Below, one piece after another: positions 23,814-39,879 of a stretch of DNA of 53,195 nucleotides. Position numbers and translations under genes: made by a program. The notes under the pieces were generated by a model. It worked only from the letters and a program-made list of their open reading frames with translations. It searched no databases and had not been told where the DNA came from. Source of the stretch: Oscillospiraceae bacterium (GTDB lineage Bacteria; Bacillota; Clostridia; Oscillospirales; Ruminococcaceae); contig JAIKWY010000105.1 of the NCBI GenBank assembly GCA_024684395.1, positions 1 to 53,195 of the forward strand, given 5' to 3'. How positions within the stretch are numbered: the first letter of the stretch is position 1; every line of letters starts with the position of its first letter.

Positions 23814-23842
23814 TTGCAAGAATTTTCAGAATGGTGTACAAT
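23814..23842 (+). promoter_or_regulatory. Promoter of the acyl-transfer gene set
   Basis: TTGCAA at 23814-23819, 17 bases, TACAAT at 23837-23842, followed by an 80-base leader to the MBOAT start. Of the four genes downstream, the first two follow at once; a 215-base gap precedes the third. Confidence 0.7.
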
Positions 23843-23921
23843 AAAAAGGCGGCTTATTCACCGCTATGCACATCAAAAATCGTTTGGAATACAAAAACTG
23901 TAGAACAGAGGCGACACGTAC

Positions 23922-25322
23922 ATGATCTTTTCAAGTCTGATTTTCCTGTACCTGTTCCTGCCCTTGTGTCTGTTGTCGTATGCGGCAGTCAAGAGGGTCT
24001 CTGACCGGAACATGGTACTGATACTGTTCTCCCTGCTCTTCTATGCGTGGGGCGAACCCAAGCGCATCGTCTATCTGCTGCTGAGTGCGGCGGTCAATTA
24101 CATATGCGGCATCGGCGCCGGAAAGGCGAAACCGATCTTCCGGAAGATCGCCGTCGGCATCAGCCTGATCTTCAACATCGGCATGATCGGCGTCTTCAAG
24201 TACAGCGGCTTCCTTGTCGAGAACATCAATGCCATCTTCGGCGCCCATTTCCCGGTGCCCGAGATCGCTCAGATGATCGGCATCAGCTTCTACACCTTCC
24301 AGGTCATGTCCTATGTCGTGGACTGCTACTGGGAGAAGGTCGAACCGCAGAAGGATCCGCTCAAGCTGCTCCTGTATGTCTGCCTGTTCCCGCAGCTCAT
24401 TGCGGGACCGATCGTCCGCTACAGCACCATTGCGGCGGAGATCGAGAACCGTGAGACGACCTTGCAGGATCTCAGCTATGGTCTGAGCCGTTTCGTGGTC
24501 GGTCTTGCCAAGAAGGTCGTCCTCGCTGACCAGCTCTTCCGCATCGTGGATCAGTTCCTCGGCAGCAAGCCGGAGGACCTGACGATCTGCGCTACCTGGT
24601 ACGGCATCATCGTATATTCGCTCTATATTTATTTCGACTTCTCCGGTTATTCCGATATGGCGATCGGTCTTGGTCGGATCTTCGGATTCCACTTCGACGA
24701 GAACTTCCGGCATCCGTATCTCTGCAAGGACATCCAGGAATTCTGGCAGAGATGGCATATCTCCCTCGGTACGTTCTTCCGTGACTACCTGATGCCCGTT
24801 CCCGTGTTCGGCATCCGCAACAAGTACCTGAGCCTTGCGCTCGTATGGCTCTGCACCGGCATCTGGCACGGCGCAAGCTGGAACTATGTCCTCTGGGGCG
24901 TGTACTACGGCGCATTCATTTTGCTCGAGACCAAGATCGGCAAAAAGAAGATGAAGAAGGTGCCCATCGTGCTGCGGCATATCTACAGCAAGCTGGTCAT
25001 CATCATCGGCTACGGTCTGTTCTATTTCGAGGACTTCAAGCAGCTCGGTCTGTTCTTCCGGAACCTGACCCCGTTCAATCCCAACGGCTTTTTCAGCTTT
25101 GCGGAGCAGATGTCTTTCTACAACAACCTGTTCCTGCTGATCGCCGGTGTGCTCTGCTGCTTCCCGCTCCTCGACATCCCGAAGAAGATCACCGAGAAGC
25201 ACGAGGCGCTCAAAGCACCGATCTCCGTTGTCGGGACGGTCTGCTGCGCTGTGCTGCTCGTCCTGAGCAGTATCCTGCTCGTGGATGCCACGACAAAGGC
25301 ATTCCTTTACTACAGATTCTAA
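23922..25322 (+). CDS. MBOAT family O-acyltransferase (AlgI/DltB-like)
   Basis: 466 residues, with about ten membrane helices. It begins MIFSSLIFLYLFLPL, the typical AlgI-class N-terminus. The family motifs are FAGPIVRY-like LIAGPIVRY, FWQRWHISLGTFFRDYL (conserved Trp-His region), and GIWHGASWNYVLWG containing the catalytic His. Proteins of this family move acyl groups from a cytosolic donor to an extracytoplasmic glycan (alginate acetylation, D-alanylation by DltB). It is followed by a DHHW protein and, further on, FkbH and acyl carrier protein genes. The acyl group carried is therefore probably not simple acetate but an acyl-ACP (inference). SD AGAGGCG lies upstream of the ATG. Confidence 0.92.
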   Translation: MIFSSLIFLYLFLPLCLLSYAAVKRVSDRNMVLILFSLLFYAWGEPKRIVYLLLSAAVNYICGIGAGKAKPIFRKIAVGISLIFNIGMIGVFKYSGFLVENINAIFGAHFPVPEIAQMIGISFYTFQVMSYVVDCYWEKVEPQKDPLKLLLYVCLFPQLIAGPIVRYSTIAAEIENRETTLQDLSYGLSRFVVGLAKKVVLADQLFRIVDQFLGSKPEDLTICATWYGIIVYSLYIYFDFSGYSDMAIGLGRIFGFHFDENFRHPYLCKDIQEFWQRWHISLGTFFRDYLMPVPVFGIRNKYLSLALVWLCTGIWHGASWNYVLWGVYYGAFILLETKIGKKKMKKVPIVLRHIYSKLVIIIGYGLFYFEDFKQLGLFFRNLTPFNPNGFFSFAEQMSFYNNLFLLIAGVLCCFPLLDIPKKITEKHEALKAPISVVGTVCCAVLLVLSSILLVDATTKAFLYYRF

Positions 25323-25361
25323 GCGTTTCACGGGGGTGCTCCCCGCCAAGGAGGCATTTAC

Positions 25362-26795
25362 ATGGCGAATCCATCGCATTACAGCGAAGAGGAGCTCGAT
25401 GTCAAGGTCGATCATAAGGAACAGCGCAGAAAGCGTGCTGAGCTGAAAGCGCTGCAATTCAATGTCCTGACGATCGTTACGATCATGATGCTCATCGCTG
25501 TATTCCTGGCTGTCGGGAAAAGGCCGACACAGTCCTTTGAGGAGAACCGTGACCTTGCCAAGTGCCCGAAGTTCACCTTCGAGAGCTACCTGGACGGCAC
25601 GTTCACCGCAGAGTTTTCCGAGTTTTATAACGATGCTGTGCCGATGCGCAGCACCTTCAAGGGCATCATCTCTGATTTCCGTGGGCATCTGGGCATCCCC
25701 TACGAGGGCGCAGAGCTCATCGGTAATGTACCGACCACACAGAAGGATCCCGATCAGACACCGGCAGCGACCGAGCCTGCGACCAAGCCTGCGCCGACTG
25801 AGAATGCGCCGGTAGGCGATCCCGATGCGACCGGTGCGCAGGAGGAGACTGAGGCAGAGACAGAGCCGGAGACCACTGAGCCTGTGGAGAATCCCTATGA
25901 GGATGAGGACAACGGCGAGATAGCCAATAACATCCTCATCGTCAAGGACAGAGGTATCATGCTCTTCGGCGGCAGCATGAGCGCTGCGGAGAACTATGCA
26001 TCCATCGTCAACGACTACAAGACGGCGCTCGGCTCCGATGTGAACGTCTACTCGATGGTCGCTCCGACGGCTGTATCCTTCTATCTGCCGAAGAAGTTTG
26101 CGAACGCATCCAACAGTGAGGCAGAGAACATCGACCACATCAACAGCTGCCTGAACGGCGTAACGCCCATCGACGTCATTGCCAAGCTTGATCCGCACAA
26201 GCAGGAAGCCATCTACTCCCGCACGGATCACCACTGGCAGCCGCTCGGTGCCTTCTATGCCGCTGAGGAATTTGCCAATGTGGCAGGCGTTCCGTTCGCC
26301 CCGCTCGACAAGTATGAGACGGTCGTCAAGGAAGGCTATGTCGGCACGCTGTACGGCTATACCGGTTCTCAGACATTGAAGGACAATCCGGAGCCGTTCA
26401 TCTACTACAAGCCGACCAACAACATCACCACCACCTACTACAACCCGGATATGACCAACGAGCGTGAGGCACCGCTGATGCTGAACATCGACAACCTTGA
26501 AGCATCGAGCTGGTATCTGGTATTCATGGGCGGTGATGAGCGTATCACGCATGTGGAGACCGACTGCAAGAACGGCAGAACGCTCTTCATCATCAAGGAC
26601 AGCTACGGCAACGCACTGGTACCGTGTCTGACCAGTTCCTTTGAGGACATCTGGGTCGTGGATATGCGCTTCTTTGAGCAGAATATCATCAGCTTCATGA
26701 AGGAACGCGACGTGACCGATGTGCTCTTTGCCATGAACACCTACAGTGCCAACAGCGGCAATGCTGACAAGTGCCGCACCATCATGAACCAGTAA
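25362..26795 (+). CDS. DHHW family protein (AlgX/AlgJ-like), membrane anchored
   Basis: 477 residues. A short basic cytoplasmic N-terminus, one membrane helix near residues 40-58, then an extracytoplasmic region. Residues about 125-190 form a Pro/Glu/Thr-rich low-complexity linker (repeats of TEPAT, TEPETTEP). The catalytic-type motif YSRTDHHWQPLGAFYAAEEF lies near residue 285, with a later KDSYGNALVP stretch that matches the family Ser-containing block. This is the DHHW/AlgX-like SGNH fold, which accepts or transfers acyl groups on surface polymers in partnership with MBOAT proteins. SD AAGGAGG lies before the ATG. The linker inside the fold is unusual for AlgX-like proteins. Confidence 0.88.
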   Translation: MANPSHYSEEELDVKVDHKEQRRKRAELKALQFNVLTIVTIMMLIAVFLAVGKRPTQSFEENRDLAKCPKFTFESYLDGTFTAEFSEFYNDAVPMRSTFKGIISDFRGHLGIPYEGAELIGNVPTTQKDPDQTPAATEPATKPAPTENAPVGDPDATGAQEETEAETEPETTEPVENPYEDEDNGEIANNILIVKDRGIMLFGGSMSAAENYASIVNDYKTALGSDVNVYSMVAPTAVSFYLPKKFANASNSEAENIDHINSCLNGVTPIDVIAKLDPHKQEAIYSRTDHHWQPLGAFYAAEEFANVAGVPFAPLDKYETVVKEGYVGTLYGYTGSQTLKDNPEPFIYYKPTNNITTTYYNPDMTNEREAPLMLNIDNLEASSWYLVFMGGDERITHVETDCKNGRTLFIIKDSYGNALVPCLTSSFEDIWVVDMRFFEQNIISFMKERDVTDVLFAMNTYSANSGNADKCRTIMNQ

Positions 26796-26849
26796 TCCAT
26801 AGCTTATGATTCTGTTTCGTATTGCTGTGGATCACAAAGGCTGATCGTT

Positions 26850-26884
26850 GTATTGCTTTCCCGCCGAAGGCGGGAAAGCAATAC
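26850..26884. repeat. Perfect 16-bp palindrome
   Basis: GTATTGCTTTCCCGCC and its exact complement, separated only by GAA. It lies in the 215-base gap between the DHHW gene and the FkbH gene. There is no T-run on either side, so it is not a standard terminator; an mRNA-processing or extragenic palindrome role is possible. Confidence 0.85.
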
Positions 26885-27010
26885 GTCTAAGAATTTAGAA
26901 ATTTGCAACCGATCATACGCAAGCTACGCCGCTGTTATAGCTGCGTAGCTTTGCGGCTATCTGAGGAATCGCTTTTTTGCGGTCATCGACCGGCTATGAA
27001 GGAGGAACCT

Positions 27011-28801
27011 ATGCTTCAGGAATTATGCTACCCGTTTGACAGCGCCGATATTATGCAGAGACGCCGCAAGCTGCTGCGTCAGCTCAAGGAGAATGAGGGC
27101 AATGTGAAGCTGCGCATTGCTGTGCTCGGCGGCTCCACCACGAGCGACATCGTGAAGATGCTCGAACTGTTCCTCCGGAACCGGGGCATCGTGCCGGAGT
27201 TCTATGAGTCCGAGTACGCCCGCTACTGGGAGGATGCGATGTTCGAGAACCCGGAGCTTGAAGCCTTCAAGCCGGAGCTCTTCTTCATCCATACCTCGAG
27301 CCGCAACATCAAGGAGATGCCGTGCGTTTCCGATTCCAAGGAGCTCTGCGAGCACAAGCTCGAGCAGACCTATGCGCATTTTGAGCAGATGTGGGAGCGT
27401 CTTGCTTCTGTATATGGCTGTCCCATCATCCAGAACAACTTCGAGATGCCCATGACACGCCTGCTCGGCAACCGTGAGGCTGGCTGTCCGCAGGGCAAGA
27501 TCGACTTCATCACCCGTCTGAACGTGAAGTTCTATGACTATGCGGCTTCGCACAAGAATTTCTATATCCATGACATCCAGTATCTCTCCGCCTGCTACGG
27601 GCTCGACAAGTGGCTGGAGCCGTCGTACTGGCATCTGTACAAGTATGCGCTTGCCGTGCCGGCGATCCCGGAATTTGCCTATAATCTGTCCAATATCGTT
27701 TGCTCCCTCATGGGCAAAAATAAGAAGGTGCTGGCGCTCGACCTCGACAACACCCTCTGGGGTGGTGTCATCGGCGATGACGGGCAGGCTGGTATCGAGA
27801 TCGGACAGGAGACCTCGATGGGGCAGGCATATGCCGAGCTCCAGCAGTATATCAAGGATCATTCTCAGATCGGCGTGCTGCTGACGGTCAATTCCAAGAA
27901 TGACTACGAGAACGCCATCTCCGGTCTGGAGCATCCGGACGGCATCCTGAAGCCGGATGACTTCACGCTCATCAAGGCGAACTGGGAGCCGAAGTCCCAG
28001 AACCTGCTTGATTCGGCAAATGAGCTGAACCTGCTGCCGGAGAGCTTTGTCTTTGTGGACGACAATCCCGCAGAGCGTGCCATCGTCAGTGCGCAGCTGC
28101 CGGATACGCCGGTCGTGGCGTTCGATTCCGTGGAGCAGTGCATCTTAGCGATCGACCGCAGCGGCTATTTTGAGGTGACGAGCCTTTCGGGCGACGATGC
28201 CAAGCGCACGGAGATGTACAAGGCAAATGCGCAGCGTCAGGCGGCGGCGCAGCAGTTCGGGAATTATCAGGACTTCCTGCTGAGCCTCGACATGGTGGCA
28301 GAGATCCGGGATTTCGACGAGATCCACCTCCCTCGCATCACCCAGCTCACCAACAAGAGCAACCAGTTCAACGTGACCACCAAGCGTTACACGCAGACCG
28401 AGATGGAGGAAACGGCAGCAAGCCCGGACTACATCCGTCTGTATGGGCGGCTTGAGGATAAATTCGGTGACAACGGCATCGTGTCCGTGGTCATCGGTAA
28501 GAAGGAGCAGACCACACTTCACATGGAGCTGTGGCTGATGAGCTGCCGTGTGCTCAAGCGTGACATGGAGCTTGCCATGCTCGATGAGCTGGTGAAGGCT
28601 GCCAGGGCGCAGGGCATCACCGAGATCATCGGCTACTACTATCCGACCGCCAAGAACGCTATGGTCAAGGAGCTGTACGGCACCTTCGGGTTTGAGAAAA
28701 CTTCGGAGGATGCGGACGGCAACAGTGTATGGAAGCTGGCGACTGCGGACTATCAGCCGCAGAACCACGTGATCAAGATCAAGGAGGAGAGTACAGTATG
28801 A
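27011..28801 (+). CDS. FkbH-like HAD-IIIC family protein (glyceryl-ACP synthesis type)
   Basis: 596 residues from ATG 27011, with AAGGAGG 8 bases upstream; the open frame extends further 5' without an SD. Three parts: an N-terminal SGNH-like region with RIAVLGGSTTSD, a HAD-IIIC domain near 238-370 with VLALDLDNTLWGGVIGDDG and FVDDNPAERA, and a C-terminal acetyltransferase-like region with ELWLMSCRVLKRDMELAML. FkbH-type enzymes remove a phosphate from 1,3-bisphosphoglycerate and load the glyceryl group onto an acyl carrier protein in polyketide and tetronate pathways. Its stop overlaps the acyl carrier protein start by four bases, which supports the same chemistry. The substrate here is inferred. 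Confidence 0.9.
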   Translation: MLQELCYPFDSADIMQRRRKLLRQLKENEGNVKLRIAVLGGSTTSDIVKMLELFLRNRGIVPEFYESEYARYWEDAMFENPELEAFKPELFFIHTSSRNIKEMPCVSDSKELCEHKLEQTYAHFEQMWERLASVYGCPIIQNNFEMPMTRLLGNREAGCPQGKIDFITRLNVKFYDYAASHKNFYIHDIQYLSACYGLDKWLEPSYWHLYKYALAVPAIPEFAYNLSNIVCSLMGKNKKVLALDLDNTLWGGVIGDDGQAGIEIGQETSMGQAYAELQQYIKDHSQIGVLLTVNSKNDYENAISGLEHPDGILKPDDFTLIKANWEPKSQNLLDSANELNLLPESFVFVDDNPAERAIVSAQLPDTPVVAFDSVEQCILAIDRSGYFEVTSLSGDDAKRTEMYKANAQRQAAAQQFGNYQDFLLSLDMVAEIRDFDEIHLPRITQLTNKSNQFNVTTKRYTQTEMEETAASPDYIRLYGRLEDKFGDNGIVSVVIGKKEQTTLHMELWLMSCRVLKRDMELAMLDELVKAARAQGITEIIGYYYPTAKNAMVKELYGTFGFEKTSEDADGNSVWKLATADYQPQNHVIKIKEESTV

Positions 28802-29043
28802 ACAAGGATCAGGTAATGGCAAGACTCACGAAGGTTTTCCGGGATGTGTTCGACGATGATTCCATCGTGCTGAGCGATAACACATCTGCAAAGGACATCG
28901 AGGACTGGGACAGCCTGGAGCACATCAACCTCATCGCCGCTGTGGAGAAGGAGTTCAAGATGCGCTTCCAGATGAAGGAGGTCTCCGGCATGAAGAATGT
29001 CGGCGAGATGGCTTCCATCGTTGCAGAGAGAGCAAAGAAGTGA
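28798..29043 (+). CDS. Acyl carrier protein
   Basis: 81 residues from ATG 28798. The phosphopantetheine site is DWDSLEHINL with Ser at residue 39, and the helical layout is that of a type II ACP. A longer in-frame start inside the FkbH gene is possible but unlikely. The overlap with the FkbH stop (ATGA) indicates coupled translation, and it probably carries the group made by the FkbH-like protein. It is not next to fatty-acid synthesis genes, so it is a dedicated carrier. The terminator at 29049-29086 ends the operon. Confidence 0.93.
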   Translation: MNKDQVMARLTKVFRDVFDDDSIVLSDNTSAKDIEDWDSLEHINLIAAVEKEFKMRFQMKEVSGMKNVGEMASIVAERAKK

Positions 29044-29177: not shown

Positions 29178-29216
29178 GCCACGGTAGCTCAGTAGGATAG
29201 AGCGGACGCCTCCTAA
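29178..29216 (+). pseudogene. 5' half of a tRNA-Arg(CCT) gene, cut after the anticodon loop
   Basis: Acceptor strand GCCACGG, TA, D stem GCTC / GAGC with the loop AGTAGGATA, anticodon stem GACGC and loop CTCCTAA all read as a normal tRNA with anticodon CCT. After that the expected GCGTC is replaced by ACAAT, and no T arm or matching CCGTGGC follows. The cut falls exactly at the anticodon loop, a common attachment site for integrative elements, so this is probably a left att junction. Confidence 0.8.
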
Positions 29217-29259
29217 ACAATCGCGCGAGCGTATGCCTTTTCTGTTTCAAATTGAATAT

Positions 29260-29333
29260 GTCCCGGTACCTCAGTAGGATAGAGGGTTCGCCTCCTAAGC
29301 GAAACGCCGCAGGTTCGATTCCTGTCCGGGACG
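29260..29333 (+). tRNA. tRNA-Arg (CCT anticodon)
   Basis: A complete cloverleaf: acceptor GTCCCGG / CCGGGAC, D stem CCTC / GAGG, anticodon stem TTCGC / GCGAA with loop CTCCTAA (CCT at 29294-29296), T stem GCAGG / CCTGT, discriminator G. All stems pair, with one G-T. No CCA is encoded. It shares the D loop and anticodon loop with the half-gene upstream but has a different acceptor stem. Confidence 0.95.
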
Positions 29334-29338
29334 CTTTA

Positions 29339-29380
29339 CAACAGCGAAAATGTACGATATTGCGTGCGTTTTCGCTGTTG
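29339..29380. terminator. Long hairpin downstream of tRNA-Arg
   Basis: Perfect 12-bp arms CAACAGCGAAAA / TTTTCGCTGTTG with an 18-base loop. A/T-rich tips mean it could end transcription from either side: the tRNA from the left, the recombinase from the right. Confidence 0.6.
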
Positions 29381-29403
29381 GTGTATCGCACTGCAAAAAC
29401 CAG

Positions 29404-29426
29404 ATCTGTTAGAACATCTAACAGAT
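29404..29426. repeat. Perfect palindrome near the recombinase
   Basis: ATCTGTTAGA, ACA, TCTAACAGAT: exact 10-bp arms with a 3-base centre. It lies between the tRNA and the recombinase 3' end, where attachment-arm or protein sites are expected. Confidence 0.75.
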
Positions 29427-29501
29427 GTCAACTCTAAAACTGGTCAGGCGGCCTGCAAAAAACGCCAACAGGATTGCAGTCCTGCGGGGCTCCGGAAGGC
29501 T

Positions 29502-29521
29502 CATGCGCCAACATGCGCCAA
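29502..29521. repeat. Tandem 10-bp repeat, candidate recombinase arm sites
   Basis: CATGCGCCAA occurs twice in direct tandem; a related CGCCAAC lies at 29463-29469. Short direct repeats beside a tyrosine recombinase are typical of arm-type binding sites, but this is inferred. Confidence 0.6.
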
Positions 29522-29567
29522 CGAGACCGCCTGTTCCGTGTGGTTTGCTGTAGTGTGTACAGTGGAT

Positions 29568-30878
29568 TCAGGCGTTTTCGTCCTCATCCACAGGATCGTC
29601 AGGGGCGAACAGAAGTTGTTCCATCTCATCGGCCAGCTTCTGCCGCTCCTCATCCACAATTGCTGCGTAAGTGTTCATCAGCATGTCCGTGGTGCTGTGT
29701 CCCATGTCTCCCTGCACTGCCTTGATGTCGTGGGATGCCCGGAGCTTTGCAGTGGCACCGGAATGGCGCAGACTGTAGAATCCCACTTCCCGCAGTTCGG
29801 TCGTTCCCAGGAACTTTTTCCAGCGCTTTGCGACCATCTCATGGGTGATCGGCCGACCGATGTCCTGACAGAAGACAAGCCCGTAGTCCTGATAGATGTC
29901 CAGCGACCGGGCCGGAGACTTGCGCTGTTCCTCGTGATGGGCAGCCAGTTTCCCGGCAAGTGTTGCTGAAAGATAGATCCGTCGGACACTCTTGTCTGTC
30001 TTGGGCTTTTTGAGCACCAGCTTTGTGGCGGTATCCCGTCCTGTGGCGGACGGAAAGATCCGGTAAACCACGGTTTTGGTGTCGTCAATGGCCTTCTGGC
30101 TCAGACGTGCAAGCTCCTGCCGTACTTGCAGATACGGCTTCCCTTGCTTCGGACGGAGATGCAAGTCCTGCCAATCCAGCCCCAGCAGTTCGCCGGTTCG
30201 CAGTGTGCAGCTGAACATGAGCTGCATCATCAGGCGCTGCTCGGGATCCTGACAGAGCCGGAGCGCTGTTTTGAATTCGTCCTCTGTCCATTGCTCACGT
30301 TCGTACTTCTCCTCCTTCGGCAGTTCCGCGCCGATTGCCGGATTGGAGTCGATGTAGCCTTGCTTCACGGCAAGCATCAGCGCCGGACGAAGGATCTTCT
30401 GTACCTCACGGATAGTGCGAGGGGTAACGTTCCCCGGATCGCCTTTATGATTGCCCCGGGCAGCCGGTTTCGTCAGCAGATCATTGTAGTAGAGCTGAAT
30501 GTCACTTGGCCGGAGCTCCGTAATAAGCGCATCCCCGATATACGGCGTGATGTAGTTACGGTTGACGGATTCCTTGCTTTTCAGTGTGCTTGCCTCCCAT
30601 TTGCGGTTGGCATTGCCCTGCTCAAAGTAGAGATTGACAAGCTCCTTGACGGTCAGTACAGATCTGGTAACAACGGCTTTCTTCCTCGACGGGAGGTTTT
30701 CGCCGTATTTGCGTCCTTCCCGCTCGGCAGCCTCTACATACGGCAGAAGAAGCTGTGCCTCGCGGAGATTGGCGCAGTGGATATTGTACTGATGCTCTTT
30801 GCCATATGCATCATAATAGCGCTGGACGACATAGTAGGTTATGCCATTTTTCCGCCTTTTGGGTTGGATCGAAGCCAT
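29568..30878 (-). CDS. Tyrosine recombinase / integrase
   Basis: 436 residues. An N-terminal arm-binding region (about 1-80), a core-binding SAM-like domain (about 85-170, VLTVKELVNLYFEQG onward), then the catalytic domain (about 200-420). Catalytic set: Arg in CTLRTGELLGLDW, Lys in the KKPKTDKS turn, YSLRHSGATAKL with the second Arg, GHSTTDML with the His, and the Tyr in MNTYAAI. This is the ICE/prophage type of Firmicutes. It lies 235 bases from the tRNA-Arg and its 3' end faces that tRNA. SD GGTGAG is contributed by the end of the excisionase gene, three bases upstream. Confidence 0.95.
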   Translation of the reverse strand: MASIQPKRRKNGITYYVVQRYYDAYGKEHQYNIHCANLREAQLLLPYVEAAEREGRKYGENLPSRKKAVVTRSVLTVKELVNLYFEQGNANRKWEASTLKSKESVNRNYITPYIGDALITELRPSDIQLYYNDLLTKPAARGNHKGDPGNVTPRTIREVQKILRPALMLAVKQGYIDSNPAIGAELPKEEKYEREQWTEDEFKTALRLCQDPEQRLMMQLMFSCTLRTGELLGLDWQDLHLRPKQGKPYLQVRQELARLSQKAIDDTKTVVYRIFPSATGRDTATKLVLKKPKTDKSVRRIYLSATLAGKLAAHHEEQRKSPARSLDIYQDYGLVFCQDIGRPITHEMVAKRWKKFLGTTELREVGFYSLRHSGATAKLRASHDIKAVQGDMGHSTTDMLMNTYAAIVDEERQKLADEMEQLLFAPDDPVDEDENA

Positions 30879-30880
30879 GC

Positions 30881-31099
30881 TTACTCACCACCCTCTCCAT
30901 AAAGATACTCGAGGAAGGATGCTTTGAGGATGCGATATACTTTGCCTATGCGAAGCACCTTGAACGGGGAGCCGGTCTGGAACGCCTGTTCAATGAGCGC
31001 ATACGCTGCGGACATGCTGACACCAAGCATAACTGCACAGTCCTCAACTCGGAGGGTTACGCATTCCTGGGGCTCTGTGATGACGGTTGTTTTTTTCAT
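30881..31099 (-). CDS. Excisionase-like DNA-binding protein
   Basis: 72 residues from ATG 31099; the in-frame ATG at 31108 lies directly on the AAAGGA SD, so the shorter start is preferred. The fold is of the MerR/excisionase winged-helix type, with TLRVEDCAVMLGVSMSAAYALI (helix-turn-helix) and VLRIGKVYRILKASFLEYL (wing and second helix). Such proteins bend att DNA to favour excision by the recombinase encoded directly downstream. It is transcribed with the recombinase from the consensus promoter at 31154-31182. Confidence 0.88.
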   Translation of the reverse strand: MKKTTVITEPQECVTLRVEDCAVMLGVSMSAAYALIEQAFQTGSPFKVLRIGKVYRILKASFLEYLYGEGGE

Positions 31100-31130
31100 A
31101 ATGCTCATCCTTTCTTCTTAATGATAAAAA

Positions 31131-31148
31131 CGATACTCTCAGGTATCG
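31131..31148. promoter_or_regulatory. Inverted repeat, candidate operator of the excisionase/recombinase operon
   Basis: CGATAC, TCTCAG, GTATCG, with A- and T-runs outside (31126-31153). It lies just after the -10 box of the excisionase promoter, and ahead of the divergent repressor. It could be a repressor operator or, on the minus strand, a short terminator since GTATCG is followed by TTTTT. Confidence 0.65.
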
Positions 31149-31153
31149 CTTTT

Positions 31154-31182
31154 ATTATACTCCATTATTTTTCGTTTGTCAA
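31154..31182 (-). promoter_or_regulatory. Promoter of the excisionase/recombinase operon
   Basis: TTGACA (complement of 31177-31182), 17 bases, TATAAT (complement of 31154-31159): perfect consensus. It overlaps the leader of the divergent regulator gene. Confidence 0.9.
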
Positions 31183-31202
31183 GCCTTTTGGAGGTGTTTT
31201 TT

Positions 31203-31787
31203 ATGAAATTTAATGATTATGCTGGGAGTAAGATTCGTTCTATCAGGAAAAGAAAAAAAATCAGAACTTCTGAATTGGCAAAAGTCTGCGGAGTATCTGA
31301 ATCAGAAATGCGTCACCTGGAAAATGGCACAAGACTCATAACGGATGCGCAGATTGAAAGAGTGGCCGAGTGGCTGCAAGTTTCGCCAGCAGCCCTTCGT
31401 TCACGGAATATCGTTGACTATTCTGATATTATGCATATTCTATTTGAGTTTGGCTTGTATTCCATTATTGAACCTGTTGTAAATGAAGAAGGTACATTTC
31501 TGAAAGTTAATGATCCTTCTTTAGTTGCTTCTATTCAAGCATGGATGGAAAAGAAGGATGAAGTTCAAAGTGGTAAGCTAACTAAAGGAGATCTTGAGAG
31601 TTGGCAAGACCATTTCCCAGATTCTATGCCTGGTCATTCAGAACCAAAGCCATATACGCCTCCATTACCTGATCCAAGTGATGTCGTTGGAGTGCATCTT
31701 ATTACTAAGGAGTATACGCCGGAGGAGATGCTTCGTCAAATGGAGGAAGGTCTTGTTCAAGACGCAGTTATTGACGATGATGAATAA
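31203..31787 (+). CDS. Xre-family transcriptional regulator
   Basis: 194 residues from ATG 31203, with GGAGGT 8 bases upstream; the longer open frame from 31176 would put the SD inside the coding region. The N-terminal helix-turn-helix (about 8-62) reads IRSIRKRKKIRTSELAKVCG then VSESEMRHLENGTRLIT, followed by a C-terminal acidic region with no recognised domain. It is divergent from the excisionase/recombinase operon, with an inverted repeat between them, so it is the likely repressor of excision. The gene is clearly AT-richer than the flanking chromosomal genes, which supports transfer. Confidence 0.88.
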   Translation: MKFNDYAGSKIRSIRKRKKIRTSELAKVCGVSESEMRHLENGTRLITDAQIERVAEWLQVSPAALRSRNIVDYSDIMHILFEFGLYSIIEPVVNEEGTFLKVNDPSLVASIQAWMEKKDEVQSGKLTKGDLESWQDHFPDSMPGHSEPKPYTPPLPDPSDVVGVHLITKEYTPEEMLRQMEEGLVQDAVIDDDE

Positions 31788-31850
31788 GGTCAGCTACGAC
31801 TCACTGTAATGCGTTAATCCGGGCAAGCTCATGAACCATGTATCACAGAA

Positions 31851-31885
31851 AAACCCGTATCTCGGTGTGAGATACGGGTTTTGTT
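31851..31885 (+). terminator. Terminator after the Xre regulator
   Basis: Perfect 13-bp stem AAACCCGTATCTC / GAGATACGGGTTT with a 5-base loop, followed by TGTTTT. Confidence 0.92.
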
Positions 31886-32145
31886 TTACTGAATGGAGTA
31901 ACATACGCAGATAAGCCACTTTTCTTCTATCGCACATAAAGCGTAGGGGAATACTGGATGTTGGATATATTTTTCTGAGTGAATATCAGCCGTTTCGATA
32001 CACTTTTATGATGGAATCATTGATGCAGGAGAACGAATAGGGGGATTATAGAGGGTCTGGAAGCGTATTCTGCATCCTATGATTCAAAGACGCCTTTATC
32101 AGTTTCTTGCATTCGTGAAAACAGAGAAGTCTTTTTTGATTTGGA
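31886..32145. other. Intergenic stretch between regulator and mcrB, nothing recognised
   Basis: About 260 AT-rich bases with stops in all plus frames and no clear SD, repeat or RNA. The mcrB promoter follows at its right edge. Confidence 0.6.
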
Positions 32146-32174
32146 TTGACTTTTTGTGCAATTTATGGTATACT
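32146..32174 (+). promoter_or_regulatory. Promoter of the McrBC operon
   Basis: TTGACT at 32146-32151, 17 bases, TATACT at 32169-32174, with further TATAAT-like boxes directly downstream (to about 32188). The start codon lies 35 bases later. Confidence 0.8.
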
Positions 32175-32209
32175 ATAATATGATATAATACATGCTTAGG
32201 GAGGCTGCT

Positions 32210-35050
32210 ATGATAGATTCTAACAAAATCGCTGCTGCGATCGAGAGCTACAAGCACTATTTCCCAGACCACTGGGCAGATGAAATGTACAAGTGGGAGG
32301 CTGTCAAGCATTTTCAGGAGCACTGGGATATGGATGCTCCTGATTTCGGGGAGATGTTCAAGAAAGCGACGGACAAGACCTCCAATCTGCTTGCGTCCGG
32401 CTATGCCTACCCCAGAGGCATGATTCTTGAATTTGCCAAAGCGGATGATGACGCTGTCCGGGAAATGTTCCGCAGGCTCTATGATGAGAGACTTGATCTT
32501 ACTGACAGGATCAATGGGTTTATTCGTACTTCTGGGGAATTGCGCCAAAAGTATGGCAAGGATAAGTGGAAACAGCATTATCAGAACACTAATTACATCA
32601 GCACCTATCTGTGGCTGATGTATCCGGACAAGTATTATATCTATAAGTACGAGCTGTTTCGGAAATGCGCGGAGTTGCTGGATGATTCGTATCGTCCCAA
32701 AGCCAACGGCTCTGCGGAGACCATGATCGGCGGCTATCGGATGTATGATGAGATCCGGAAGATCTTGCAGGCTGACGGCGAGATCCGGCAGATGTTGCAG
32801 GGTGCTTTGACAGAATCGTGCTATCCGGATCCGGAGTTGGTGACGGCAACGATTGATTTTGGCTTTTATGTTGCACGGTTTTATCTGGATGATTCAGCAA
32901 AAGCTACTGAGCATGAGGGCGGATGGTTCCCCACCCCCGAGGAATACGATCCCGGGCTGTCTGTTGAGGACTGGCGTGCATTGTTGGCGGATGCGGAAGT
33001 GTTCGACGAGAACAGCCTGACGGTGGTGCAGCGGATCTATGACATGGGCGGACAGGCGACCTGTAAGGAGCTATCCGATCAGTATGGCGAGGATCCCGGA
33101 TTCTATAACGTTATTTCGTCTAAACTTGCGAAGCGGGTTCGCAAGAAAACCGACTGCCCCTTGATCAAGGATGAGATCAGCGACAATGCAAAGTGGTGGC
33201 CGATTCTATATGTAGGACATCCTGCGGGGAAAGATACCAAGGGCGCTTATGTGTGGAGACTGCGGGATGAGCTGAAAGAGGCATTGGAAACGATGGAACA
33301 GAAAGTAACGAATTCATGGCTATTGGCATGGAATCCCAAGAACTATGACTGGGAAGGGGTTGATGAAAAGTACAACTACTATACCATGTTGAAGACCGTC
33401 AGAAATGGTGAAGAGTATTTTGAGTCATGGAGATGCCATAGTAAACAAGTCAAAAAGGGCGACAGGATCTACATTATCAGATTAGGAGTTGAACCAAAGG
33501 GAATTGTAGCAACCGGGTACGCAGCAAGCGACAGCTATGAGGAAAATGGAATAAGTTTAGTTGATATTACAATTACTAATACGATAGACTATAAGACGGA
33601 GGAGATTATTCCACAGGAACAACTAATTGAATTGTTTCCTGATCAACAATGGAGTCCACGAGGGTCGGGAATATCTATTAAACCCGATGCTGCGCAGTGG
33701 CTGATTAAAAACTGGAGTAGTAGGTCAATTGTCAGAAGTGACGATAATACCACAGAATCACTTACTGTTTCAAACTCCGAGTTTCTGAAATACTTTTCCC
33801 CATTGATCCAAGCATTAAAAGACCTCGGCGGTAGTGCAACGAGAAAAGAAGCTCATGAGAAAGTAATTGAGCTGATGGGAATCTCCGATGATGAGCTTAG
33901 TGTTACCTATGAAAAGACCGGAGCAAGCCGTGTGCTGAATCAGATCGACTTTGCAAGAAACGACCTTGCTCATGAAGGTTTTATCAGCAGTGAAATCAAG
34001 GGTGTGTGGGCACTTACTGAACTTGGCATGACGATTGAAATGACACGGGAGCTTGCAGGTCGTATTCGTACCAAGTGGATAAAAATCTGTACAGCCAAAC
34101 GCAAGGGTGAACCTGTTCCGGTAATTGATCTATCACAATACTATAAAAAGAAGGTTGACCATAAATATACAAAGAAAGGTTTCTTAAATGACGTATTCAT
34201 CACAGAATCTGAATACGACAAACTCCGCACGCTCGTCCTCAGAAAGAAAAACATCATCCTTCAAGGTGCACCCGGTGTCGGAAAGACCTACGCTGCGAAA
34301 CGTCTGGCGTATTCCATCATCGGGGAAAAGAACGAGAACCGCATCTGTATGGTGCAGTTCCACCAGAGCTACTCCTACGAGGATTTCATCATGGGGTACA
34401 GACCAAATGACAATGGCGGATTTGAGATGCAGAGTGGTGTCTTTTACAATTTCTGCATCCGCTGCAAGGAGAACCCTGATGAGCCGTATTTCTTCATCAT
34501 CGACGAGATCAACCGCGGCAACCTGAGCAAGATCTTCGGTGAGCTGCTGATGCTGATCGAGGCGGACAAGCGTGGCGCAGAATACAAGCTGAACCTCGTC
34601 TATGACAACAAGCCTTTCTATATCCCAGAGAACCTGCACATCATCGGCATGATGAACACCGCCGACCGCAGCCTCGCCATGATCGACTATGCCCTGCGCA
34701 GACGTTTCAGCTTCTACACGATGCAGCCGGCGTTTGAACATGCCGCAGTGAACGGGTTTAAGACGTATACCGATCAGATCGCTTGCGAGCGGTATCATAC
34801 TGTCATTGCCAAGATCAGAGAGCTGAACGCTGCCATCCGCAAGGACACCACTCTCGGCAAGGGCTTTGAGATCGGGCACAGCTATTTTTCTCCGGCGGAT
34901 CCTTCTGTGATCGACGATGCGTGGGTGCGGAATGTCGTGGAATACGAGATCGTCCCGCTGCTGGAGGAATATTGGTTTGACGATGGCAAAAAAGTCGAAG
35001 AATGGGCAAAGGTGCTCTATCAGGCATTAGGTGAGGACTATGACAGTTGA
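32210..35050 (+). CDS. mcrB: McrB-type AAA+ protein with EVE-like and Mrr-N-like domains
   Basis: 946 residues from ATG 32210 (GGGAGG upstream). The C-terminal AAA+ motor has Walker A GAPGVGKT near 686, Walker B FFIIDEINRGN near 761 and the McrB signature MMNTADRS near 813. Upstream of it, residues about 367-460 (SWLLAWNPKNYDW ... GDRIYIIRLG) look like an EVE/PUA-type reader of modified bases. Residues about 520-610 look like the Mrr N-terminal winged helix. The N-terminal 220 residues are a further uncharacterised module. McrB proteins use NTP to move along DNA and recruit the McrC nuclease to modified foreign DNA. The gene overlaps mcrC by 11 bases. Confidence 0.93.
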   Translation: MIDSNKIAAAIESYKHYFPDHWADEMYKWEAVKHFQEHWDMDAPDFGEMFKKATDKTSNLLASGYAYPRGMILEFAKADDDAVREMFRRLYDERLDLTDRINGFIRTSGELRQKYGKDKWKQHYQNTNYISTYLWLMYPDKYYIYKYELFRKCAELLDDSYRPKANGSAETMIGGYRMYDEIRKILQADGEIRQMLQGALTESCYPDPELVTATIDFGFYVARFYLDDSAKATEHEGGWFPTPEEYDPGLSVEDWRALLADAEVFDENSLTVVQRIYDMGGQATCKELSDQYGEDPGFYNVISSKLAKRVRKKTDCPLIKDEISDNAKWWPILYVGHPAGKDTKGAYVWRLRDELKEALETMEQKVTNSWLLAWNPKNYDWEGVDEKYNYYTMLKTVRNGEEYFESWRCHSKQVKKGDRIYIIRLGVEPKGIVATGYAASDSYEENGISLVDITITNTIDYKTEEIIPQEQLIELFPDQQWSPRGSGISIKPDAAQWLIKNWSSRSIVRSDDNTTESLTVSNSEFLKYFSPLIQALKDLGGSATRKEAHEKVIELMGISDDELSVTYEKTGASRVLNQIDFARNDLAHEGFISSEIKGVWALTELGMTIEMTRELAGRIRTKWIKICTAKRKGEPVPVIDLSQYYKKKVDHKYTKKGFLNDVFITESEYDKLRTLVLRKKNIILQGAPGVGKTYAAKRLAYSIIGEKNENRICMVQFHQSYSYEDFIMGYRPNDNGGFEMQSGVFYNFCIRCKENPDEPYFFIIDEINRGNLSKIFGELLMLIEADKRGAEYKLNLVYDNKPFYIPENLHIIGMMNTADRSLAMIDYALRRRFSFYTMQPAFEHAAVNGFKTYTDQIACERYHTVIAKIRELNAAIRKDTTLGKGFEIGHSYFSPADPSVIDDAWVRNVVEYEIVPLLEEYWFDDGKKVEEWAKVLYQALGEDYDS

Positions 35051-36095
35051 CAAGGGCATTTTCATCCGGAACATCTACTACATGCTGTCCTATGCCTTTC
35101 AGATCCTGAAGCAAGAAGATTATCAGCAGGTTGCTGGCGAGGATTTCGAGAAGATCCATGATCTGTTTGCGGAGATCCTCGAAAAGGGCGTTTCACGGCA
35201 GGTCAAGCAGGGCTTGTACCGCGCGTATGTGCCGATGCAGGAGGATCTGTCCGTCATCAGGGGCAAGGTGCAGCTCAATGCAACGATCGCCCTGAAAGCG
35301 CAGCATAAGCAGAAGATTGCCTGCGAATATGACGAGTTTTCCGAGGATAATCTCTACAACCAGATCCTGAAAGTCACGATTCACCATCTGATCCATGCAG
35401 CGGATGTGAGCGCCGAGCGGAGGCAGAAGCTCCGGCGGCTGCTCCCGTTTTTCGGCAATGTCACGCTGATCCAGCCGGATCATATCGCATGGAACCGCCT
35501 GATCTACCAGCGGAACAACCGGAATTATGAGCTGCTGCTGAATATCTGCTATCTGGTGCTGAACAGCCTGCTGCAAACAACGGAGGACGGAAACTACAAG
35601 CTGATCGAATTTTCGGATGAGCATATGGAACGGCTTTATGAGCGGTTCATTCTGGAGTATTACAGACAGCATCATCGCGAGCTGCATCCGAATGCTGTAC
35701 AGGTGGATTGGAATCTGACCGAGCAGCCTGACCAGACGATGATCCAGTTCCTCCCCACGATGCAGACGGATATTACTTTGCAGAAGGACGGCAAAACACT
35801 CATCATTGATGCGAAGTATTACGGCAAGTCGATGGTGCAGAACTACTCGAAGGAAACGCTGCGCTCTGGGCATCTGTACCAGATCTTCGCCTATGTGAAG
35901 AACATGGACAAGGACAATAGCGGCAATGTTTCAGGCCTGCTGCTCTATGCAAAGACTGAGGAAGAACTGTTCCCGGAGGGTGAACCGTTTGTCATTGGCG
36001 GCAGCCGGATCGGTGCAAGGACGCTGGATCTGAACCGGGAGTTCAGGGGGATTGCGGGGCAGTTGGAGGATATCGTAAAACATTTCTTTACGTGA
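35040..36095 (+). CDS. mcrC: McrC-type nuclease subunit
   Basis: 351 residues from ATG 35040; an in-frame GTG at 35031 is possible but AGGTG fits the ATG better. It has the McrC/LlaJI layout: an N-terminal DUF2357-like helical part and a C-terminal PD-(D/E)xK nuclease. The catalytic set is an Asp in MQTDITL and DAK in LIIDAKYYGK near residues 243-262. It acts with the McrB motor encoded just upstream to cut modified DNA. The stop region TGAGG supplies the SD for a 43-residue membrane peptide that follows at once. Confidence 0.92.
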   Translation: MTVDKGIFIRNIYYMLSYAFQILKQEDYQQVAGEDFEKIHDLFAEILEKGVSRQVKQGLYRAYVPMQEDLSVIRGKVQLNATIALKAQHKQKIACEYDEFSEDNLYNQILKVTIHHLIHAADVSAERRQKLRRLLPFFGNVTLIQPDHIAWNRLIYQRNNRNYELLLNICYLVLNSLLQTTEDGNYKLIEFSDEHMERLYERFILEYYRQHHRELHPNAVQVDWNLTEQPDQTMIQFLPTMQTDITLQKDGKTLIIDAKYYGKSMVQNYSKETLRSGHLYQIFAYVKNMDKDNSGNVSGLLLYAKTEEELFPEGEPFVIGGSRIGARTLDLNREFRGIAGQLEDIVKHFFT

Positions 36096-36713: not shown

Positions 36714-39700
36714 TTACCCCACAGTCAGTTGATTGGTCTTCCGGAGATACTTCGCAGGAATCGGCTTCCGGAGCTTCCACACGATGTCCAGCGGCTTTGA
36801 GCCCTCCGACTTGACATAATCTGCAAGTCCCAGAAATGTATACGGCGCCGCACCGAGCTTGGTACTCTTGTATTCACGGACAAACAGCATCACATACGTT
36901 CCCATCTGGCGATGATGGATGTAGCGCTGACCGGTTTTGCTCTGCGGTGTTGTGGTGCTCTGGCTCTGCCAATGGAACAATTCGCTGTTGATCGAATAAT
37001 CATGATACATCGTCGTAGGAGAATAGTCCCTGTCCGACTTGTTGAGCGTGACAAACAGTAGGTCGGTCTTTTTGTCCTCCAGATACTTCACACCCTCACG
37101 GACGGTATCCGGCTTCATGAAGTCAAGCGCCACGAGGATCTGGTCACGGGTGTAGCTGCAATGCACGTCCAATGGGCAATCATACTCCGTCTGTACAGGC
37201 TCGTCGATGAAGTCGATTTTCTCGTAATTGTAGTACAGCAGTTCCAGCATCTCTGCAAGCATGACAGGCGACTTTGCAATCTGGCGGAATCCTTCCAGCG
37301 GGTCAGTAAAGCCGCAATCCTCATTGGATTTCTGCCAGATGGTGAATTGCAGCATCTGCCACATTTTCTGCTGAACACCATCGAAATCCTCGATGCGATA
37401 CCTGCTGATTTCAGGCAGATAATCGACAACAAGCTCGATCAAGCGGTGTGAATCCATATAGGACAGGCGGGGCAGCGCCTTGGTGATGACGTCCTCTATT
37501 TCCTCGGAGAAATCCTCCTGAACGCCTGCCTGCACACAAAGCCTTGCAAAGCTGCATTTCGTACTATAAATCGCACTGAGATCGAGATGATAGTAGTCCA
37601 GAAAATCGGCAAGGGTCAGCGGCCTTCCGCTGTCCTCTGTGAAGGTGGACAGCTTCTTGATGAGGGCGGTCTTATTGCCCACAGCCTGCCGGATATTGTC
37701 GAGGATATACTTCTGCGCCTGTTTCTCCAGCTTGATATAGCAGCCTTTCGGGAGCAACGGGAAGCCGGTCTCGATCTCGTGTCTGACGCTGCGCTGCGTA
37801 TTGCCCAGCAGTGCTGCAAATTTCGACTCAAAGTTGTATTTGCTGTGCGCCTGACCGATAAAGTCGAGCACCGTCAGACAGTCCTTGCCCTCGCTGAGAC
37901 GCAGACCACGCCCGAGCTGTTGCAGGAACACAGTCAGGCTCTCTGTGGGACGCAGGAACATGACCGTATTGACCTCGGGAATATCCACGCCCTCGTTGTA
38001 CAGGTCTACCGTGAAAATGAATCTGATCTCACCGTTTGCCAGCTTCGCCTGTGCCGAATCACGTTCGTCCTTTTTGCTGTCGGCGGTCAGAGCGATGGAA
38101 GGGATATGATGCTCATTGAAACGCAGCGCCATATACTCGGCGTGCTCTTTCGAGACACAGAAGCCAAGTCCCTTGACCTGCTCCAGATCTGCGACATACT
38201 TGTTCAGCTCTTTCAGAATCAGCATGACGCGCATATCGTTTCCGGTGTAGATATTGGAAAGCGCTGTCCTGTCGTAGCCTCCACGTGACCACTTGATGTC
38301 GTGCAGATCAACATCATCCGACACGCCAAAATAGTGGAACGGACAGAGCAGCTTTCTGTCGATCGCTTCCGGCAAGCGGATCTCCGCAGCAATGCGGTTC
38401 TCGAAATACGGCAGAATCGACTTGCCGTCCATACGCTCTGGTGTAGCAGTCAGTCCGAGCAGGATCTTCGGCTGATAATAGGCAAGCAGCCGCTGGTAAG
38501 TCGGTGCAGCAGCGTGGTGGAATTCGTCCACGATGATGAAGTCATAGAAGTCAGGCGATGTGATCTGATCCAGTGCCTGTGAATTGAACGTCTCGATGGA
38601 GATAAACAGGTGATCAAGGCTATCCGGCACAACACCTCCATAGAAAAGCTCACCAAAGTTTGCATCATGGAGTACGCCGCGGAAGCATGTAAGGCTCTGC
38701 TTCAGAATCTCTTTTCTGTGTGCCACAAAGAGCAGCCTTGCATGTCCGTTCTGCTGCCGGAAGCGTTTGTAATCAAAAGCGGAAATAACAGTCTTACCTG
38801 TACCTGTTGCCGCAACGACAAGATTTTTGTAGTGTCCCCGGATAGAGCGCTCGGCGGTCAGCTTATCAAGTATCTCCTGCTGATAGGAAAACGGACGAAT
38901 ATCAAAGCTGTAGTCAGTGTTCTCTCCGTGATATTTCTCCGCTTTGAGCGCCTGCAACAGATGCTGTCTGTCATCGGCAGAATACAGCGAAAAATCGGTA
39001 CTGTTCCAGTAGCTTTCAAAAGTAGCGATGATCTTTCGGATGGTATGCGGCTGATCGTGTGCTGTGATTTTCAGATTCCATTCGAGGCCGCTGGTCATGG
39101 CGGCATTGGACATATTCGATGAGCCGACATAGGCCGTGGTAAAGCCTGTATCACGATAAAACACATAGGATTTTGCATGGAGCCGTGTACGTTCCGTGTC
39201 GTAGGACACCTTGATCTGTGTATTGGGCAGCTTGCGCAGTTCTTCCACTGCTTTCACATCCGTTGCACCCATATACGAAGTTGTGATCACACGCAGCTGT
39301 CCGCCGCGGTTGGTGAAGTCGGTGAGCTCATTCAGAATCAGCACAAGCCCGCTCCACTTGATGAAGGAAACGAGCAGATCAATCCTGTCGGCGGAAACGA
39401 TCTCCTTTTTCAGCTCGGTCATCATCTGCGGTTCATGGTCGGCACCCGTGAACAGTGAGCTTGAGGCGAGGGAAGTTTCGGGGCGTGTCATCGTGATGTG
39501 CCCCCGCACAGCATCGGCATTGTTCTGCCTATTGGCAACCGCAAGAAGCTGCTCCGCACGCTGATCGACGCTCAGGCCGTCAAATTCCGCATCGCCGGTA
39601 AGCTCGGTCACTGCCGAGACGATCCTGTTGGCAAGCCCGAGCTGCCCCTCAATATCATCACCCGCAAGGCAGGAAAGCCCCTTCTCAATCACCTCGGACA

Positions 39701-39830: not shown

Positions 39831-39854
39831 GGGGGACACCTCCGAAATGATGTA

Positions 39855-39879
39855 TTTTAGAGTAATGGCATCTCTAAAA
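39855..39879. promoter_or_regulatory. Inverted repeat downstream of the helicase promoter, candidate operator
   Basis: Exact 8-bp arms TTTTAGAG / CTCTAAAA with a 9-base centre, about 20-45 bases after the predicted start of transcription. Confidence 0.65.

Follow-up and report, generated by a model that had tools for sequence, protein, structure and literature searches.

What does a loader enzyme of polyketide chemistry do beside a membrane O-acyltransferase? The question is raised by a stretch of 53,195 nucleotides from an Oscillospiraceae bacterium (GTDB family Ruminococcaceae; NCBI GenBank assembly GCA_024684395.1, contig JAIKWY010000105.1, positions 1 to 53,195 of the forward strand), hereafter ‘the window’. 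Four genes follow one another here on one strand, encoding a membrane O-acyltransferase (MBOAT), a DHHW/AlgX-like protein, an FkbH-type HAD-IIIC protein, and an acyl carrier protein (ACP). An earlier interpretation made from the letters alone, the ‘sequence-only reading’, had seen in them a Dlt-like route that may decorate a surface glycan with glycerate. We favor, with moderate confidence, the view that the set is a carrier-protein-fed MBOAT-SGNH pathway of surface O-acylation, in which glyceryl loaded by FkbH is placed onto a surface glycan; the identity of the acyl group and of its acceptor, like every reaction step, is proposed from sequence and by analogy.

The four genes and their products

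All four genes are present and intact, and their order, common strand, and four-base FkbH/ACP overlap, as given in the sequence-only reading, were confirmed by direct reading and by profile scores. The genes, and the residues on which the argument turns, are as follows.

23922..25322, + strand: MBOAT membrane O-acyltransferase, 466 amino acids (PF03062, 89 bits; cut-off 27)
24780..24827, + strand: donor-side segment of the MBOAT, RDYLMPVPVFGIRNKY, R287-Y302, replacing RDYxYIPLGGNR and aligned to DltB helix HC
24867..24869, + strand: His316 of GxWHG, the conserved MBOAT histidine, invariant in 17 rows
25302..25319, + strand: C-terminal FLYYRF of the MBOAT, residues 461-466, fitting the FXYXXF acyl-shuttle motif as defined in an excerpt of PMC12148441
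25362..26795, + strand: DHHW/AlgX-like SGNH-type protein, 477 amino acids, with an N-terminal hydrophobic anchor by eye (PF14286, 173 bits; cut-off 25)
26226..26237, + strand: DHHW motif, D289-W292 (Asp and His of the expected catalytic triad), invariant in 16 rows
26601..26603, + strand: Ser414 of KDSYGNA in the DHHW protein, candidate catalytic serine, invariant in 16 rows
27011..28801, + strand: FkbH-type HAD-IIIC protein, 596 amino acids, with N-terminal FkbH_N, HAD, and C-terminal domains (TIGR01686)
27737..27760, + strand: HAD motif LDLDNTLW, FkbH residues 243-250, by alignment
28544..28546, + strand: Cys512 of MSCR in FkbH, candidate acyl-thioester residue of the loader
28798..29043, + strand: dedicated ACP (family profile; Ser conserved)
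28912-28914, + strand: phosphopantetheine Ser codon of the ACP, motif DSLEH, by alignment

The window FkbH scores 291.5 bits against TIGR01686 (cut-off 146.65), 62.9 bits against the HAD-IIIC model TIGR01681, and 48 bits against FkbH_N (PF21211), and it matches PDB entry 3slr across residues 21-368 (phmmer E 2.7e-42). The PDB molecule names of 3slr (the FkbH relative BF1531) and of 4nzk (a DHHW relative) give no function. The gene most likely starts at 27011, downstream of AAGGAGG, rather than at the mechanical open reading frame (ORF) start at 26903, and its stop overlaps the ACP start in the four bases ATGA (28798-28801). The HAD motifs DLDNT, SKN, Lys, and DDN are all present in the alignment; the active site, which the sequence-only reading had singled out as a possible weak point, keeps its key residues, and dephosphorylation is therefore expected. 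The MSCR cysteine (Cys512) is Cys in every FkbH row printed, distant outgroups included, and is our preferred loader residue; the cysteine of ‘CSKN’ was rejected as essential because it varies in both FkbH clades. Among the matches listed, the closest named FkbH relatives belong to metagenome-assembled genomes (MAGs) labelled Oscillospiraceae, Ruminococcus, and Clostridia, with identities of 84, 82, and 78%.

Library models recognize the ACP only weakly (PF00550, 18.4 bits, cut-off 20.8; NCBIfam ACP models, 22-27 bits, below their cut-offs). A profile of its relatives reaches 94.8 bits against PDB entry 2lml, a ‘putative acyl carrier protein’ that we take to be the Geobacter ACP proposed for lipopolysaccharide. 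All 21 aligned relatives, of which three come from the sister clade described below, keep the Ser after Asp37, and in the window genome the ACP profile matches the window ACP only (E up to 0.001).

For the MBOAT, the family profile found two PDB matches, both DltB (8jem and 6bug). An FXYXXF-type C-terminal end occurs in 109 of the 115 MBOATs examined, and the clade of the window’s kind, here called R-type, comprises 42 rows (SH-aLRT, an approximate likelihood-ratio test, 100). The DHHW protein additionally matches ALGX (PF16822, 36 bits), and its profile reaches 418 bits against 4nzk and 85 bits against PatB1 (5v8d). D289, H291, and S414 are all invariant in the 16 rows; the triad role of Asp and His in the DHHW motif is assumed by us from the AlgX and PatB families.

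Recurrence of the set

FkbH was found in 57 of 148 genomes of the family. Fifty-seven stretches round FkbH matches were fetched from 54 genomes in addition to the window (G015 and G046 were not fetched at FkbH), as were three further stretches round other MBOATs of the window genome, and their ORFs were classified with profiles grown from the window proteins. The order MBOAT-DHHW-FkbH-ACP is present in 17 of the 55 FkbH-bearing genomes examined, the window counted. In locus L035, the DHHW gene is split into two ORFs within the set; L037, with two DHHW-type ORFs and its MBOAT elsewhere, was entered by hand among the set rows of the FkbH tree. At three loci, DHHW-type ORFs stand in tandem between the MBOAT gene and FkbH: four each at L100 and L102 and three at L103. 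When gene clusters were compared among set loci, the flanks had almost no neighbors in common beyond the four genes. Since the four recur together with almost no common flanks, they are a recurrent unit.

The named collection holds at least 585 FkbH relatives, from which the best 80 were kept, i.e., chosen for likeness to the set’s FkbH. Among these 80 loci, 28 have the full set by strict rules, and a same-strand MBOAT lies within 5 kb in 35 of the 45 that have at least 5 kb on both sides. With R-type defined as an MBOAT profile score over 600, and linkage counted within 4.5 kb, FkbH, ACP, and an R-type MBOAT stand together in 44 loci, or 41 without near-copies; wherever an R-type MBOAT lies within 4 kb, DHHW and ACP are present too (42/42 loci, near-copies kept). 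The linkage in related genomes on which the sequence-only reading depended is thus upheld, both by the 17 of 55 genomes and by the 41 non-redundant loci. A class-wide sample of 391 genomes gave 31 with an FkbH profile match at E up to 1e-100; of these, 23 score at least 694 bits and eight 340-491 bits.

The FkbH tree has 58 rows; proteins under 400 amino acids or scoring 300 or less were dropped, so that G015 and some fragments are absent. All 18 set-labelled rows fall, with six others, in a group of 24 (support 98/93), and a separate group of 29 rows contains 22 with other partners. A profile of 17 set-linked MBOATs matches at least 139 of the 148 genomes at E up to 1e-50, and R-type calls for co-occurrence were made by score, donor segment, and tree (G015 was judged by a fragment at 57% identity). 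On this basis, 25 genomes have an R-type FkbH, 25 an R-type MBOAT, and 23 both (Fisher p 1.7e-22, kinship not corrected). G054 and G123 have the FkbH without the MBOAT; the reverse holds for G108 and for G016, which is 55% complete and has no FkbH or ACP match. Eight genomes with an R-type MBOAT contributed no row to the profile, and in six of them an R-type FkbH lies at a distance from the MBOAT or on a different contig; both genes of G099 are at contig ends and possibly adjoin in truth. G108 has MBOAT-DHHW-ACP with no FkbH beside, which indicates that the ACP goes with the MBOAT pair.

The donor segment of the MBOAT

According to an excerpt of PMC11035591, residues Met302, Val305, Ile306, Met309, and Lys312 of DltB helix HC, with Arg317, touch DltC. 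When the window MBOAT is aligned to DltB, these contact residues fall on its donor segment, which is flanked by the conserved FW-RWH and G-WHG. Where no ACP is near, MBOATs mostly have RDYxYIPLGGNR or similar at this place; R-type MBOATs have RDYLLYVPIFGKR or similar (RDYLMPVPVFGIRNKY in the window), and in Lachnospiraceae MBOATs that adjoin an ACP, a longer insert of unrelated sequence is found.

To tabulate the segment, we used 115 distinct MBOATs of at least 430 amino acids, after removing those with identical last 200 residues. With a same-strand ACP within 5 kb, PLGG is absent in 58 of 59; with FkbH but no ACP within 5 kb, it is absent in 8 of 12; among our own selection of 44 with neither neighbor within 5 kb, it is kept in 35 and absent in nine. 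Seven of these nine are R-type, six of them with an R-type FkbH elsewhere in the genome and one in a genome 55% complete; the others are L123, whose FkbH and ACP are on the other strand, and L091. L123 was kept as counted, as was L109_13547, the second MBOAT of its locus, 4.4 kb from the ACP. L091, from contig 208 of the window’s own genome, adjoins a DHHW gene and has GGWYG, no WHG histidine, and no shuttle motif; it is probably inactive as an acyltransferase, judging by these motifs, and was discounted as an exception for want of the WHG histidine. The MBOAT segment homologous to the DltC-binding helix differs with ACP nearness.

Within the R clade, the single member with PLGGNR, L243, comes from genome G113 (99% complete), which has no FkbH match. 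There is no ACP in the fetched stretch, and the only ACP match in G113 is a weak one, at 36.7 bits, against 108-143 bits for set-type ACPs in the same search. L243 fits the PLGG rule, since it keeps PLGGNR in a genome without an FkbH match. Measured by mean identity, it resembles R-type MBOATs more closely in all alignment intervals that allow a comparison except three, which span residues 281-360 and contain the donor segment; its best match over the first hundred or so residues is undecided. L243 would thus be either one natural swap or a case of the ancestral segment retained.

Related FkbH-ACP sets

The window set belongs, as one branch, to a broader family. A second common set in the family consists of FkbH, ACP, a MaoC dehydratase, an SDR, and a GNAT-like protein (GNAT by eye, with no Pfam match). 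It belongs to the sister clade of 29 FkbH rows and has an FkbH and ACP homologous to those of the window set, with dehydratase, reductase, and GNAT-like protein in place of MBOAT and DHHW; perhaps it is a lactyl-ACP route that ends in N-acylation. At sister-clade loci such as L056, L066, L069, and L077, a penicillin-binding-protein-like gene (by eye) often lies upstream on the other strand.

Many Lachnospiraceae loci, including that of Eisenbergiella tayi, have the order FkbH-ACP-MBOAT with an MBOAT of another subfamily. In E. tayi, two family 2 glycosyltransferases, a YdjC protein, and three DUF6056 proteins surround these genes, and locus L127 includes a family 1/4 glycosyltransferase. Because glycosyltransferases adjoin the E. 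tayi and L127 sets, the neighborhood of such loci points to a surface glycan as acceptor.

Tailoring families, confirmed by Pfam on example loci, divide the branches. No MaoC, SDR, split transketolase, VOC, or GNAT-like partner lies within 4 kb at any of the 42 R-type loci; the 29 loci with other MBOATs include 10 MaoC, six SDR, six and five transketolase halves, and three VOC genes. In L119, L130, L133, L144, L167, and L174, FkbH is followed by split transketolase halves and then the ACP, with MaoC in five of the six and an MBOAT next after the ACP in L119, L130, L133, and L144. By their gene content, these loci would place a thiamine pyrophosphate enzyme in an acyl-ACP pathway. Outside the window’s branch, the sets come with tailoring enzymes, and their load is probably a different acyl group.

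Proposed pathway

FkbH enzymes are reported or proposed, in excerpts of PMC7489565 and PMC13122637, to make glyceryl thioesters from 1,3-bisphosphoglycerate. By the same chemistry, the window FkbH would take the acyl group of 1,3-bisphosphoglycerate, remove the phosphate at its HAD site, and load D-glyceryl onto the phosphopantetheine of the ACP. Glyceryl-ACP would then dock on the cytosolic helix of the MBOAT that corresponds to the DltC-binding helix of DltB, as suggested by the homology and by the ACP-linked loss of PLGGNR. At the outer face, the MBOAT may pass the glyceryl on to the tyrosine in its C-terminal FLYYRF, the shuttle from which the DHHW protein, by analogy with PatAB and Dlt, would accept it on Ser414 and esterify hydroxyls of a surface glycan.

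Glyceryl itself is likely the simplest load for the window set, given FkbH chemistry and the R-type loci free of tailoring genes. In bryostatin loading, the FkbH step is followed by dehydration and reduction to lactyl. Loader, carrier, MBOAT channel, and extracellular SGNH-like transferase are also the roles assigned by the sequence-only reading, and the linkage, the intact HAD residues, the lack of DltA matches over cut-off, and the donor-segment difference all argue for them.

Comparison with known systems

The parallel with Dlt drawn by the sequence-only reading stands for the roles: as in DltABCDX, there would be a carrier protein loaded in the cytosol, an MBOAT, and an anchored SGNH-type transferase outside. 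It does not extend to a copy of Dlt. FkbH is found instead of the DltA ligase and DHHW instead of DltD, and an acid without an amino group is expected. The comparison with dlt genes that the sequence-only reading had called for set the two apart: the DltA model TIGR01734 is over its cut-off (559.85) in none of the 18 set genomes, with sub-threshold matches in 17 of them (best 274 bits; in the window genome, 236 bits, in a 1424-amino-acid open frame). The window MBOAT scores 153.5 bits against the DltB model TIGR04091 (cut-off 375), and no separate DltX-like gene with FXYXXF lies between the four genes among the listed ORFs of at least 60 amino acids, the motif being fused to the MBOAT. Membership in Dlt was rejected on these DltA, DltB, and DltX grounds.

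Acyl-CoA MBOAT-SGNH systems (PatAB, AlgI/AlgX, WssH) share with the window set an MBOAT with a C-terminal FXYXXF and a separate AlgX/PatB-like Asp-His/Ser protein; Bacillus cereus PatA1/PatB1 is one of them. With its shuttle motif fused to the MBOAT, as in these systems, the window set reads as a hybrid and not as a copy of Dlt. In an excerpt of a 2025 paper (PMC12148441), Dlt is singled out among MBOAT-SGNH pathways for its carrier protein, and the others are described as being without one; unlike the latter, the window set has an ACP and a loader, and PLGGNR is replaced.

The FkbH glyceryl-ACP modules of tetronates, methoxymalonyl-ACP, and suomilide belong to the same family as the window loader, with 1,3-bisphosphoglycerate as the expected donor, and in the tetronate and methoxymalonyl cases, FkbH stands beside a stand-alone ACP, as it does here. 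The bryostatin pathway is presumably a further module of this kind. In contrast to such polyketide and peptide modules, the window operon lacks a polyketide synthase, FabH, dehydrogenase, and methyltransferase, and its output is an MBOAT; polyketide/tetronate or methoxymalonyl partner genes were found neither in the operon nor among the clusters common to set flanks.

The sequence-only reading knew of no description of surface glyceroylation. This holds for the route, as no link of FkbH and MBOAT in surface modification was found in open-licence PMC literature, but not for the substituent. Excerpts of two papers report a dimethylglyceric acid derivative of pseudaminic acid on Campylobacter flagella (PMC7099621) and glyceric acid in Clostridioides difficile lipoteichoic acid (PMC10642750), that is, glyceric acid or a derivative on a surface glycan, as proposed for the window set. 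The Campylobacter locus has an fkbH-domain gene, cj1302, whose role the excerpt does not state; the derivative is tied there to cj1295, and neither excerpt describes an MBOAT route. A glycerate-loading FkbH domain and a sugar-acylating MBOAT do meet in a cyanobacterial peptide pathway (PMC13122637, in excerpt), and the two words co-occur in PMC10143770 too.

Alternative explanations

Several observations weigh against the proposed pathway. The control MBOATs without linked genes are a non-random pick of ours from a list ranked by likeness to R-type. On an MBOAT tree made with the ‘quick’ method, from which the donor-segment columns and a hand-made list of near-copies were left out (115 rows reduced to 106), the PLGG state needs five changes, and an independent-pairs sign test is not significant (median p 0.5). 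At loci L051, L073, L120, and L154, which lack an ACP within 5 kb, FkbH adjoins a PLGG-type MBOAT, so that FkbH and MBOAT can evidently pair otherwise; L051 lies in G054, which has an R-clade FkbH, PLGG kept, and a set-type ACP on another contig, and this case disfavors a simple rule of ‘ACP in genome, no PLGG’. The only FkbH of G108 is divergent and lies elsewhere in the genome, and the same-genus genomes G028 and G139 have none. The window FkbH has Asn as the first residue of ‘CSKN’, at a position variable in both clades. Lastly, no glycan cluster was seen beside the set in the window flanks.

Could the four genes be mere neighbors, with MBOAT-DHHW an ordinary acetyl-CoA O-acetyltransferase and FkbH-ACP serving an unrelated product? 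MBOAT-DHHW pairs without an ACP are common in the same family, the shuttle motif is of the fused type described for acetyl-CoA users, and 215 bases with a repeat element separate the pair from FkbH. Chance proximity is nevertheless hard to square with 41 non-redundant linked loci, the co-occurrence of R-type FkbH and MBOAT even when not adjacent, the MBOAT-DHHW-ACP arrangement of G108, the loss of PLGGNR near an ACP, and the separate FkbH-ACP-MBOAT arrangement in Lachnospiraceae, and we hold this explanation to be very unlikely. Less easily set aside, though still unlikely, is carrier-fed surface acylation in which the ACP load is a phosphoglyceryl, lactyl, or oxidized three-carbon unit formed via enzymes encoded elsewhere. 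Sister and related sets carry MaoC and SDR, split transketolase, or glyoxalase-fold genes, which indicates that FkbH-loaded ACPs in Clostridia are often tailored, and tailoring enzymes need not adjoin the set. Plain glyceryl is favored over these loads by the 0/42 count at R-type loci and by the HAD residues, whose preservation argues against a phosphorylated load.

A correct relay could also end on a secreted small molecule, a lipid, or a protein rather than on a cell-surface glycan. The window flanks were rejected as a pointer to the acceptor. No glycan genes were seen directly beside the window set, and set flanks have almost no neighbors in common, which leaves room for such acceptors. The DHHW protein is, however, related to PatB1 of B. 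cereus, an acetyltransferase that reportedly acts on wall polysaccharide, and the relative in E. tayi lies among family 2 glycosyltransferase and DUF6056 proteins and another beside a family 1/4 glycosyltransferase; we give acceptors other than a glycan little credence. Glyceryl transfer to a surface glycan stays our preferred reading of the set.

Genomic setting

The window is contig 76 of an assembly of 4.2 Mb in 225 contigs. Three further features mark the edges and the interior of the set.

23814..23842, + strand: promoter-like site TTGCAA-17-TACAAT before the MBOAT gene (consensus match only; three found against 3.8 expected in shuffles)
26850..26884, + strand: palindrome of 35 bases between DHHW and FkbH, a repeated element of the window genome
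29049..29076, + strand: terminator-like stem of 12 pairs after the ACP (consensus match only; five found against 4.5 expected)

The promoter-like site, whose position is also the start given to the set by the sequence-only reading, and the terminator-like stem are about as frequent as in shuffles and carry little weight as evidence. The palindrome lies inside the 215-base gap between DHHW and FkbH. A 205-base query round it gave nine matches in the genome, two being the query place itself and seven further ones at 79-94% identity, and the surrounding intergenic RNA has a much more favorable fold than shuffled sequences (z -6.1); it has no part in the mechanism.

Upstream of the set are the housekeeping genes CoaE, M18 aminopeptidase, and exodeoxyribonuclease III; downstream are a tRNA-Arg and then a tyrosine integrase. 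The tRNA-Arg (CCT) is at 29260-29334 and is immediately preceded by a partial tRNA-like repeat, as judged by eye. The region 29181-36095 contains, after the tRNA, the tyrosine integrase (- strand), a helix-turn-helix regulator, a 952-amino-acid McrB-like AAA protein, and a 354-amino-acid McrC-like protein; the last two names were given by eye, and PADLOC assigns a type II restriction model (72 bits) to the McrB-like protein and none to the McrC-like one. The region looks like an integrated, defense-bearing element adjoining the set. Further on, a protein of 1064 amino acids (36714-39908, - strand) with PLD, ResIII, and DUF3427 domains matches the PADLOC model for a type IV methyl-directed restriction enzyme (800 bits), and a NUDIX gene adjoins it. 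Two dockerin-bearing rhamnogalacturonan lyases of family 11 (40343-44425, - strand; 49512-52958, + strand), one with a GH43 and one with a GDSL esterase domain, suggest cellulosome-type pectin degradation, and hence that the host is probably a fiber degrader.

Significance

The set would break the division in which Dlt alone has a carrier, combining a carrier protein and a fused acyl shuttle with a loader known from polyketide pathways. Glycerate is thereby predicted as a new ester on the surface of gut and rumen bacteria, one with a direct tie to the glycolytic pool. The presence or absence of PLGGNR is a candidate sequence marker for the donor type of unassigned MBOATs. The set should be testable in culture, since relatives exist whose records are not marked as MAGs, namely Neglectibacter sp. 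X58 for the window type and E. tayi DSM 26961 for the FkbH-ACP-MBOAT type.

More tentatively, and as a possibility that we rate below the pathway proposed for the window itself and short of probable, gut Clostridia may have a whole family of ACP-fed MBOATs, each placing its own kind of short acyl group on a surface glycan: unmodified glyceryl in the window type, dehydrated and reduced, lactyl-like groups with MaoC and SDR, ketol-extended groups with split transketolase, and epimerized groups with glyoxalase-fold proteins, the donor segment telling acyl-CoA users (PLGGNR) from users of a carrier protein. If this family-wide reading is true, a second class of carrier-dependent surface acylation would stand beside Dlt, fed by glycolysis and not by amino acid activation.

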